From: a virus
IMG/VR virus record: IMGVR_UViG_3300025767_000110
Location: 1 to 25,924 of that record
Direction: 5' to 3' (one strand)
Length of the DNA: 25,924 nucleotides
A program made the position numbers and the translations under genes. The notes below the pieces were generated by a model. That model saw only the letters and a program-made list of their open reading frames with translations, searched no databases and was not told the origin of the DNA. Shown here piece by piece: positions 19,329 through 25,173 of the stretch. Every line of letters begins with the position of its first letter. Within the stretch, counting starts at the first letter, position 1.

Positions 19329-19712
19329 TTATATGTTTTGCTCCAAAAACTTGTCACACGCTTGCTTTACTGTCATTCCAATCAAATTCTTGTCCGTTGC
19401 ACCAACAACTATAGCATTGCCAGCATCAATATCTTGGTCGGTTGGTGCTTCGTGTTCCGCCACAATTATTACCACCTTTTTGCCAGCTGCTGTCAGCCCT
19501 TCATATATTGCCTTTAAAAAACGTCTTTGACCCTCTGGCATCGGGACGCCCTTAAACTTTAATTCGCCAAATATAAACAACTGACCTTTTACGTCATAAG
19601 CAAAGTCAATATCGGTCGGCGTATAACCATTCAATTGCAGGTTAGTGAAATCCTTTACCTGTTCCATGCGCTTGCGATATTTAATTGCGCCATTTAAATT
19701 CAATATACTCAC
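19329..19712 (-). CDS. PD-(D/E)XK-like nuclease (127 aa)
   Basis: Short nuclease-like protein. Asp34/Asp36 in YTPTDIDFAYD, then the strand FIFGELKFKG with Glu50-Leu-Lys52 (ExK), and a helix EGQRRFLKAIYEGL: the core of a PD-(D/E)XK domain. KKVVIIVAEHEAPT gives the next strand. It could process branched or damaged DNA during replication; the partner is unknown. The only start near the 5' end is GTG at 19712, inside the inverted-repeat cluster and with weak ribosome-binding potential, so its translation may be tied to whatever binds there. An internal ATG at residue 16 is an alternative. Confidence 0.65.
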   Translation of the reverse strand: MSILNLNGAIKYRKRMEQVKDFTNLQLNGYTPTDIDFAYDVKGQLFIFGELKFKGVPMPEGQRRFLKAIYEGLTAAGKKVVIIVAEHEAPTDQDIDAGNAIVVGATDKNLIGMTVKQACDKFLEQNI

Positions 19713-19826
19713 ATCACACCCGCATCATCACATCACAACCCCTATTATATAGGGGGTTGTGATGTTTGTGATGTTTTGCCATTTGTTGTGATTTCTTTGT
19801 GATTTCTTGTGACTTGTTGTGATTTT
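19713..19826. repeat. Intergenic iteron cluster with GC-rich dyad, candidate replication origin
   Basis: On the plus strand TTGTGAT begins at 19757, 19766, 19786 and 19797, then TTGTGAC at 19807 and TTGTGAT at 19817, i.e. near one helical turn apart with one position missing near 19776. To the left, inverted copies occur at 19713 (ATCACAC), 19727 (ATCACAT) and 19732 (ATCACAA). Between the two orientations a dyad ATCACAACCCC-TATTATATA-GGGGGTTGTGAT (19732-19763, one bulged G) encloses an AT-rich centre. Three more copies lie inside the helicase gene at 19895, 19904 and 19930. Phased direct repeats next to a primase-helicase gene are the usual form of an initiator-bound origin; an operator is the alternative. 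Confidence 0.65.
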
Positions 19827-21689
19827 TTACCATCGTTCATTCACCAACCCATTGTTATAAGTAAACAAAGCGCCTTCTCCTGTTGACCAATCTTTTGTGA
19901 CCCTTGTGACCTGCGTCCCGTGAAGCGGCTTGTGATTTTGCTCTTGATATTTGGCCTTCAAAACAGCTTTAAAAACGTCCTCCGGAACACCAAAATCGTC
20001 GCCTTTGGTCTCTGTCAAATTGGTGTCTTTTAAGCATTCGCGCAACACTTCTAACGCAAATAATTTAACTTCGCTTTGCACGCCTTTGCCACGCGGTTGC
20101 GCTCGGTCTGTAACATCGAGCACGATACTTGTGCGCTCCGAGCCTATTACGCCGCTAACAAATGACACCTCACGAGCTTGCAAATATATCGGCTCGCACT
20201 CTTCGACGTCTTTTTGCTTGTCTACGCGGACGCATACTTGATTTGTGCCAGTCTCGCGTTTTATAGAAATAGCCGTATCAACTGCACCCATTAAAGCGCT
20301 AGAACCGCGAATGTCGCCGCTTTTTCCAGTATGGTGTACGACAACAACGGTGCAATCATATCGCTCCCGGATAAGGTCTAGGTTCCTGATAAATGTACCC
20401 ATGTCGGTTGCGCTGTTTTCATCTGCACCACCGGCAAAGCTCCTGGCCAATGTGTCAACGATAATTAGACTTGGCGCCTCTCCCATCGCGTCAATTGCCT
20501 CAACCAGCAAACGAATATCGTCAGATTGGTCAAGTGCCATGCTTAATGGCTGTGTAACCGTGTAAAATGGCGCATCTGCGTCAGATAAAACCCTGTCTTT
20601 ATGCCACGCAGCCGCCCGAACTGATATGCCTGATTGACCTTCCATGGCCAAATATAAACAACGCCCGGCAACTGTCGGCCGTCCATTCCAATCGCTGCCA
20701 TGCGCAACTGATAAAGCCCAATCCAAAACCAGAAACGACTTATAAGACGCGGGAGCGCCAAAGACTACCGCCAGAGACTTATCAATGATATAATCGCCAA
20801 CCAAAAAACTTGGTGGTGGTGTTTTTCTTAACTCATCAAGCGTTTTGATTTTGATTTGACGGTCAAAACTACTAGCGGATTTTGGTTCAATGGCCTCTTT
20901 AGGTGGCGGTGTGTTAAGCCCGGCTCCGCTTTCTTTTCGTGCCTTATTTAACGTGCTTGTAACCTTTTTCTTAAACTCATCAATTCCACGTCCCTCTGCG
21001 TTTAAATCGTCGCCTCGGCTTCTTACCTTTTTCTCATAAACCGGGTAAACATTAACAACCATCCACTCCAGCGTCGGATATGTGCCATTATCGCGGTAAT
21101 AATTGGCAATCGCAGCATAAACCATTCGAGCCATAAATTTTTCACGGCCATCAACAATGTTGCCCCACATATCCAAATCAGAACCATCATTAGGACTAGA
21201 TATGCTGCTGACCATATGACCAACGGCCGAACCCAATGCGTCAGGAAATGTGCCAAAATCTTCATCATTAACCCACCTATAACCAATGCTTTCCGGCCAT
21301 ATTACATAACCACCATCACCTCGGACATCGACACAACCGTCAATGCCAGCACGATTTCGGATACCATCAACGTGCTGATAGTAATAATGCCAGCCGCCAG
21401 ACTGTGTCTCGGCGACCTTAGTGACGCCCAAAAGTTCTTTGTTTGCATCGACCCATTCCTTGCCCTTTTTGCCATCGCGCACATCTATATCAATAACCGA
21501 CAAGCCTGACAATTCACCCGTCGGCACGCCGATTAAAGCTGCACCATGTACGCTAAAAAGCCGTTCAATTTCTGCCGGGTCTTGTGTCGCCGCTTTAAAG
21601 CCGCCAGAACAAACCGGGCGCTTGCGGACGTCGCATGGAAACACCGGATATTCTTCGGCGACTTCCAATGCTTTATTTAATAAATCCAT
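19827..21689 (-). CDS. Primase-polymerase / RepA-like helicase, bifunctional
   Basis: A 620-aa fusion of two replication enzymes. Residues 1-155 form a bifunctional primase/polymerase domain: GLSVIDIDVRDGKKG holds the catalytic Asp67/Asp69, and QSGGWHYYY (His101) is the second motif. After a linker with a PPP stretch, residues about 280-500 form a RecA-fold helicase: Walker A GAPASYKS (Lys317), Walker B SLIIVDTLAR (Asp412) and VVVVHHTGKSGDIRGSSAL. It would prime and unwind the phage genome. Start at ATG 21689: GGGAG seven bases upstream and the N-terminus MDLLNKALEVAEEYPVFPCD fits the family; the frame open to 21764 has no such support. The repeat cluster starts right after its stop. Confidence 0.88.
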   Translation of the reverse strand: MDLLNKALEVAEEYPVFPCDVRKRPVCSGGFKAATQDPAEIERLFSVHGAALIGVPTGELSGLSVIDIDVRDGKKGKEWVDANKELLGVTKVAETQSGGWHYYYQHVDGIRNRAGIDGCVDVRGDGGYVIWPESIGYRWVNDEDFGTFPDALGSAVGHMVSSISSPNDGSDLDMWGNIVDGREKFMARMVYAAIANYYRDNGTYPTLEWMVVNVYPVYEKKVRSRGDDLNAEGRGIDEFKKKVTSTLNKARKESGAGLNTPPPKEAIEPKSASSFDRQIKIKTLDELRKTPPPSFLVGDYIIDKSLAVVFGAPASYKSFLVLDWALSVAHGSDWNGRPTVAGRCLYLAMEGQSGISVRAAAWHKDRVLSDADAPFYTVTQPLSMALDQSDDIRLLVEAIDAMGEAPSLIIVDTLARSFAGGADENSATDMGTFIRNLDLIRERYDCTVVVVHHTGKSGDIRGSSALMGAVDTAISIKRETGTNQVCVRVDKQKDVEECEPIYLQAREVSFVSGVIGSERTSIVLDVTDRAQPRGKGVQSEVKLFALEVLRECLKDTNLTETKGDDFGVPEDVFKAVLKAKYQEQNHKPLHGTQVTRVTKDWSTGEGALFTYNNGLVNERW

Positions 21690-21775
21690 AAAAATGCTCC
21701 CACATTTTTCTCCCTCATAAAAGTTGTGTCGGCGGGACTGAGGGAGCATAACCCGCCGACACATTCTTTAGCTGT

Positions 21776-24633: not shown

Positions 24634-24848
24634 GTGCTCTCCCTCCTTGGCAAAAAATAATCTTTTTGTTGATGGTTGCCGACCTTTTTTGCGGCAGTGA
24701 TAAAACCTTTGCTCTGCTCTTTGAAAGCTCCAGATTCCAAAGCATCGGTAAAGTTTAGTTGACCCGAACTGTAGATGGTTTCCAAAACATCAAGCTCATG
24801 CTGAGACATTGTGAGCGTGTAACCTTTAGTGGTTCTTGACAGCTTCAT
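24630..24848 (-). CDS. Hypothetical protein (72 aa), early region
   Basis: The true start is ATG 24848 (GGGAG nine bases upstream); the longer frame above it only mirrors the DnaA-like gene. The product starts MKLSRTTKGYTLTMSQHELD, followed by VLETIYSSGQLNFTDALESG; the helix-rich central part could be a small winged-helix or helical bundle. It overlaps the DnaA-like gene by 23 bases and may be coupled to it. Function unknown. Confidence 0.65.
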   Translation of the reverse strand: MKLSRTTKGYTLTMSQHELDVLETIYSSGQLNFTDALESGAFKEQSKGFITAAKKVGNHQQKDYFLPRREST

Positions 24849-25167
24849 ATTTTTTAACTCCCTCAATAATGTTTGTGCTATAATTTTTGGCCTCAATTTT
24901 TGCCAAATCAATAATATAATCTTGATTATCAACCCATCCACGTTTGAACGCTTTATTTGAGCCGCTGATGACTGTGGTATGGTCACGACCACCCAAAAAC
25001 CTTGCTGTGTGACAATAGCTATAACCAAGCCCTTGGGTTGCAATGTGATAAAAAACAAACCTTGGTTTTACAAATTCACGCTTCCGACAACCGCCAAAAA
25101 AGTCATCTTTGCTGACATTGTGTTGTCGGCAAATAACCTTTGCCAAGTGTTGCAGTTTTATTTTCAT
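24826..25167 (-). CDS. Stand-alone DnaA domain IV (DNA-binding) protein, 113 aa
   Basis: The protein consists of little more than the C-terminal DNA-binding domain of the replication initiator DnaA. VSKDDFFGGCRKREFVKPRF lies near residues 18-37, followed by FVFYHIATQGLGYSYCHTAR and the signature GRDHTTV at residues 60-66, which in DnaA contacts the major groove of DnaA boxes. The AAA+ ATPase domain is absent. It could mark phage origin DNA, compete with host DnaA or act as a regulator. It is the first gene after the main leader region, so likely made early. ATG 25167 is preferred over 25173 because AGGAG stands six bases before it. Confidence 0.85.
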   Translation of the reverse strand: MKIKLQHLAKVICRQHNVSKDDFFGGCRKREFVKPRFVFYHIATQGLGYSYCHTARFLGGRDHTTVISGSNKAFKRGWVDNQDYIIDLAKIEAKNYSTNIIEGVKKYEAVKNH

Positions 25168-25173
25168 TCCCAT

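Follow-up and report, generated by a model that had tools for sequence, protein, structure and literature searches.

What is the role of a tight cluster of short repeated words that surrounds a palindrome directly behind the primase-helicase gene of a marine phage? The locus lies in a stretch of viral DNA of 25,924 nucleotides (the window; IMG/VR record IMGVR_UViG_3300025767_000110), a 25.9-kb virus record that is probably incomplete. A first-pass annotation of these letters had proposed a plasmid-like iteron origin. We conclude that the array is very probably the replication origin of the phage, read by its own primase-helicase, and the best explanation of the sequence comparisons is a self-encoded iteron origin that the winged helix predicted at the C-terminus of an RSF1010-RepA-type helicase would recognize.

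Words and palindrome behind the primase-helicase gene

The nine direct copies of TTGTGA(T/C) read earlier between 19757 and 19930 are all present (Table 1). The helicase gene is read from the minus strand and has its end at 19827; the array thus stands directly behind it, with three copies in its last codons; the earlier observation that these three belong to the reading frame (19827-21764) was borne out. Inverted copies had also been announced to the left of 19739. One of them is a full word, but the others are three weaker TCACA matches (19709, 19714 and 19728), one of which is overlapped by the GTG start codon (19712) of the next ORF, as the annotation said. TCACAA or TTGTGA occurs 10 times in 230 bp; when this stretch was shuffled 2,000 times with its dinucleotides preserved, the maximum was 5, and nowhere does the rest of the window approach this density. 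Of the 26 copies of TTGTGA in the window, 10 fall within 240 bp here, against 0.24 expected. The words had been described as phased by one helical turn. Spacings of 11, 10 and 10 bp are indeed found from 19786 to 19817, but the longer spacings have no helical phase, so "closely packed" describes the words better than "phased". In 20 relatives, neighbouring words were mostly 8-13 bp apart, with a mode of 9-10.

The dyad with an AT-rich centre is there as well, although over these arms it is not bulged as first described: it is a perfect 13-bp inverted repeat around a 10-nt AT-rich centre. The window holds two more inverted repeats whose arms reach 9 or more, both of them far off; of the three, this palindrome has the longest arms. 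Folded as DNA, the hairpin reaches -17.3 kcal/mol (z about -7 against shuffles).

Table 1. Features of the locus and their positions in the window
Feature	Position	Strand	Remarks
Small PD-(D/E)XK-like ORF (next gene), DIDF...GELK motif	19329..19712	-	Outside the element; other genes in relatives
Intergenic array, proposed origin core	19713..19826	.	Extends into the helicase gene to 19936
Palindrome ACATCACAACCCC-TATTATATAG-GGGGTTGTGATGT	19730..19765	.	A C4/AT/G4 core flanked by inverted words, one on each side
Inverted full word copy, left palindrome arm	19732..19738	-	
Main word group	19757..19823	+	TTGTGAT at 19757, 19766, 19786, 19797, 19817; TTGTGAC at 19807
Primase-helicase gene, 645 aa	19827..21764	-	Homologues start at an ATG near 21689
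Helicase C-terminal domain, predicted winged helix	19836..20078	-	Varies together with the repeat word
Codons of the predicted recognition helix (third helix)	19881..19919	-	AF2 helix 82-94 of the 111-aa model; two in-frame word copies
Three further word copies within the helicase CDS	19895..19936	+	Starts 19895, 19904, 19930
AAA_25 (RSF1010 RepA-type) helicase domain	~20313-20831	-	Pfam PF13481, E 2e-39
Prim-Pol domain	~21240-21671	-	Pfam PF09250, E 3.9e-24
Stand-alone DnaA domain IV gene (Bac_DnaA_C)	24826-25173		E 2.4e-13

The same layout with other words in relatives

Relatives were collected by helicase protein similarity alone, which yielded about 100 loci. All close Prim-Pol relatives carry a word cluster and one palindrome directly after the helicase stop codon. 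Repeats at the same place in related phages, which the first-pass annotation had regarded as a check on its proposal, were found, and their words are lineage-specific: TCACAA in the window, TATCACA in L004, TCACAC in L016, CATGAA in L003, L006 and L014, ATCCATA in L008-L012, CGTCAAC in L015, L017, L020 and L025, GGTAAGAAA in L018, and CTGAAC in L019 and L026. Of 48 non-redundant flanks, 30 contained the core palindrome, compared with 21 of 929 control segments from the same loci. A 6-mer present at least seven times was seen in 23 of these flanks and in 12 of the control segments; these flank criteria were fixed after examples had been seen, and the same rule was applied to the controls. The palindrome core is common to 32 aligned relatives and reads C(C)CTATA(TA)GG in most. 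Among relatives it takes the form C(C)CTATAGG or CCCTTTAGGG, the centre being far more constant than the words, while the arms show paired changes across lineages.

The same layout is present behind the Toprim-RepA helicases of isolated phages (Idiomarinaceae 1N2-2, Alteromonas PB15 and Salicola CGphi29) and in the Rhizobium phages 16-3 and RHph_X2_25. Since the array also stands behind Toprim-RepA helicases, it appears to belong to the helicase and its winged helix rather than to one primase type. A circular Caenibius plasmid has the same layout behind a RepA-type helicase, as would be expected if the element were an origin. Loss of the repeats with the genes retained, an outcome held in advance to speak against an origin, was not seen in close relatives; the element is missing only behind certain remote AAA_25 helicases (Caulobacter GB2A, Gordonia Widow, Mycobacterium Dove and ct76p945; loci L110-L112 and L114). 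Rfam gave no match to the element, and in the openly licensed literature we found no description of it in phages with RepA-type helicases, which does not prove novelty.

The primase-helicase and its C-terminal domain

Pfam recognized only AAA_25 and Prim-Pol in the primase-helicase. A sequence profile of 13 homologues matched RSF1010 RepA in the PDB (1g8y, E 7.6e-8). With the full-length AF2 model, Foldseek found RepA (1nlf/1g8y) and the pRN1 prim-pol (3m1m/9aam). The last 111 residues were modelled with a pLDDT of about 80-87 across most of the fold, in the order helix, two strands, helix, helix and beta-hairpin wing. Foldseek matches of this C-terminal model were weak, none of them below E 0.1, and mainly winged-helix domains, including those of ORC2 and Cdc6. 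From this moderate AF2 model, the C-terminal domain is predicted to be a winged helix.

The word changes together with the C-terminal domain

Words were counted within the intergenic part alone, and their similarity was compared with that of the proteins by Mantel tests, which do not fully take out relatedness. Word similarity followed the helicase C-terminal domain with a Mantel r of 0.85, and of 0.75 when the helicase core was removed. Once the C-terminus was known, no signal was added by the upstream HTH gene, ORF192 or the downstream ORF193; for the HTH protein given the C-terminus, r was 0.07 (n = 8). A separate set of Toprim-type helicases (n = 17) pointed in the same direction, with r 0.49 and a partial r of 0.39. 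In that set, we also considered a residue-by-base code relating the recognition helix to the varying base of the ATCnCA words, for which the independent cases were too few.

Natural exchanges could be seen as well: in several pairs, DNA that is otherwise homologous differs just in the C-terminal domain and the words. Between the loci L014 and L008, which have different words, homology extends to 271 bp before the stop codon, gives way to unrelated sequence across the C-terminal codons and the array, and resumes at +91, within the next gene. In contrast, homology is continuous between L014 and L006, which share one word.

To cultured phages the window is linked by its terminase, the only match of its DNA to phage records, which leads to the Roseobacter phages CRP-811, CRP-821, CRP-823, CRP-831 and CRP-406. 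These have circular genomes of 29-33 kb in which a RepA-family helicase is followed by the same element. The word CTACAAA has 11 of its 11 genome copies within the array in CRP-811 and 11 of 13 in CRP-823; GTATAAA has 10 of 12 there in CRP-821 and 10 of 11 in CRP-831; the word of CRP-406 is CTGGAAA. Over most of residues 240-640, the helicases of CRP-811 and CRP-821 share 95-100% identity; over the last ~105 residues the value drops to 55-78%, and positions around the predicted recognition helix differ. From one phage to the other the word switches from CTACAAA to GTATAAA while the palindrome core is kept. The C-terminal domain adjoins the array, so linkage accounts for part of the covariation. 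However, the last 13 residues, which are the closest to the array, differ between the two phages at the final residue only, which speaks against simple linkage as a full explanation. As far as the sequences go, the word tracks the C-terminal domain of the helicase, and neither the rest of the helicase nor the neighbouring genes.

Neighbouring genes, DnaA and GC skew

The next gene had been suggested to be autoregulated through the inverted copies. A Pfam search of this gene gave no match, and D..ELK is invariant in four homologues. In relatives, the place is taken by two unrelated types of gene or by none while the array stays, and the type is independent of the word: L008 has the type of L003 and L006, and L009 has that of the window. 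Because the next gene is not conserved, its autoregulation is unlikely.

The DnaA-type domain encoded in the window had been put forward as a partner of the origin. This did not hold up: among 18 virus records of array-keeping relatives, several of them longer than 28 kb, none showed a DnaA-like gene, and with one mismatch allowed there is no DnaA box in 19700-19940. Across the window, DnaA-box-like sites are fewer than chance.

A GC-skew signature at the array, proposed as a further sign of an origin, was not clear. The skew of the window is steadily negative, and several complete relatives give no clear origin signal. The skew minimum is 1-2.5 kb from the element in PB15, CGphi29 and 1N2-2, where it coincides with divergent genes, and 1.6-5.9 kb from it in the CRP phages. 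As an origin signal, the skew is confounded by gene orientation.

Other readings of the element

The element might control transcription, with the centre of the palindrome as a -10 box and the words as operator or activator sites, a reading that we regard as unlikely, as we do its supposed targets, whether the next genes or a switch from replication to packaging genes. It draws on a sigma-70 match of 10/12 on the transcribed strand across the palindrome (ATCACA, 17 nt, TATAAT) and on the position of the element in the window, with replication genes to one side and packaging genes to the other. Nevertheless, promoter-like matches are no commoner than chance (3 against 2.3), and inspection of the relatives showed no -35-like hexamer at the corresponding distance. 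Moreover, the next gene varies among relatives, no packaging gene is found there in 1N2-2, ct3Oc712 or 16-3, and word similarity shows no dependence on the HTH regulator after the helicase C-terminus is considered.

It is very unlikely that the words are sites of another phage protein, a Cro/XRE-type HTH protein or the DnaA-like domain, that would recruit the helicase. An HTH gene does lie upstream in the window and in most close relatives, but its similarity adds nothing to that of the words given the C-terminus; the TTATCACA of L004 resembles a shortened DnaA box, but the DnaA domain is missing from the 18 relatives' records. Hardly any credit can be given to the idea that the element is an intrinsic terminator, or a hairpin in the mRNA, at the end of the helicase gene and that its words are incidental. 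This would suit the stable stem and its paired arm changes, but the scan detected neither a T run after the stem nor a terminator-like site, Rfam gave no match, and the ten words, their confinement to the array and the covariation with the helicase would be left unexplained.

A self-encoded origin and its likeness to known replicons

The earlier proposal of an iteron origin beside a prim-pol helicase is supported by the position of the array, by words that follow the C-terminus, by the cultured phages and by one plasmid, but not by DnaA, autoregulation or skew. In an origin read by its own helicase, the winged helix would bind the words and several helicase subunits would line up on them. The palindrome would then open or extrude, two helicase rings would load, and the fused primase would begin synthesis on the exposed strands. 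The reading of the words appears to be a better supported step than the role of the palindrome, which may be a priming hairpin, a loading site or a dimer site. That it serves opening or priming is a tentative suggestion. As the same hairpin forms on both strands, the palindrome could serve both directions. Since the array is kept when the primase switches from Prim-Pol to Toprim, the constant centre is probably for the helicase or DNA opening and not for one primase active site. A GTG priming motif as in RSF1010 was considered and discarded: on inspection it is not conserved, because several words have no GTG or CAC.

The closest precedent in its working is that of the staphylococcal islands. 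In SaPI Rep/ori and SCCmec Cch2/ori, the C-terminal domain of a self-loading helicase recognizes iterons directly downstream of its own gene; inverted repeats are likewise present in the SCCmec ori, which is a priming site (PMC7581432). Short iterons directly downstream of an initiator-helicase gene are found here too, and recognition by the C-terminus is suggested by the covariation and the predicted winged helix. In contrast, the SaPI and SCCmec helicases are of the DUF927 or D5/Primase_Cterm type, whereas here the helicase is RecA-fold and RSF1010-RepA-type, the hosts of the element are tailed phages of marine proteobacteria, and a palindrome core is conserved. In pRN1, a stem-loop downstream of the prim-pol helicase gene (ORF904) is required for replication (PMC4234260). 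The likeness extends to an N-terminal Prim-Pol, a helicase, a C-terminal winged helix (predicted here) and a stem-loop origin (proposed here) directly behind the gene, but the pRN-family helicase is SF3, not AAA_25/RepA-type, and its stem-loop has no iterons, whereas here palindrome and iterons occur together. The oriV of the IncQ plasmid RSF1010 resembles our element in its homologous hexameric RepA helicase, archaeo-eukaryotic-type primase, iterons and hairpin sites. However, RSF1010 uses three proteins (RepA, RepB' and RepC) and two separate ssi hairpins (ssiA and ssiB), one per strand, while here there are one fused protein, words of ~7 bp and one palindrome. No gene resembling RepC, the separate iteron-binding protein of IncQ, was noticed beside the helicase. 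Because the helicase family, the iterons or the number of hairpins differ each time, the element is a member of none of these groups. In phage P4, as cited in PMC4234260, one protein (alpha) binds origin repeats by a winged helix, unwinds and primes. Unlike here, alpha combines a Toprim primase with another helicase family. P4 replication also requires a second distant site. As for DnaA-dependent origins, neither DnaA boxes in the array nor a DnaA-type protein retained with it in relatives was found.

The element could represent an undescribed, widespread class of phage origin with two modules, a constant palindromic centre and exchangeable words with their cognate winged helix, although we put this forward as a possibility short of probable. 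Within such a class, it is conceivable, with similar reserve, that the centre C(C)CTATAGG or CCCTTTAGGG is used by the RepA-type helicase whatever primase is fused to it. Perhaps, and again not with confidence, phages exchange the words and the winged helix together, as a single cassette, so that the origin of each lineage is private and mutually compatible. For many phages known from metagenomes only, the element gives a sequence rule: likely origins would be marked by words clustered around a C-TATA-G palindrome immediately after the gene of a RepA-type primase-helicase. It also links phage origins to the IncQ, pRN and SaPI replicons. The natural swaps, foremost that between CRP-811 and CRP-821, make initiator-origin specificity directly testable. 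They also raise the question of why the origin words keep changing, perhaps against cross-initiation or hijack by co-infecting phages or satellites.

Other repeats at these loci

In the TCACA class (window, L004 and L016), copies of the word lie within the codons of the predicted recognition helix (19881-19919 in the window, ~2485-2515 in L004 and near the gene end in L016), meaning that the predicted DNA-reading helix is encoded by copies of its own presumed target. Behind the RepA-type helicase of the E. coli O145 plasmid p1RM9154-C1 (L206), AAAGTGAGG repeats were seen at ~2446-2745 with no evident palindrome; this may be an enterobacterial element that is organized in the same way. Tandem GGTCTATGGCAATGCTA-like repeats at ~3340-3560 of L045 lie inside an ORF behind a RepA-type helicase and were rejected as an origin element, being a coding repeat. 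Finally, a second and unrelated array of direct repeats was observed between the replication and packaging genes of three relatives, of the TATTTCCACTGGAGGT type in L008 (~+1661 to +1943 behind the helicase stop) and L009 (~+1774 to +1945) and with the word GGTAGTACGTTTCCCC in L017 (~+1619 to +1768). The window has none at the corresponding place. This second array is possibly a packaging (cos/pac) site.
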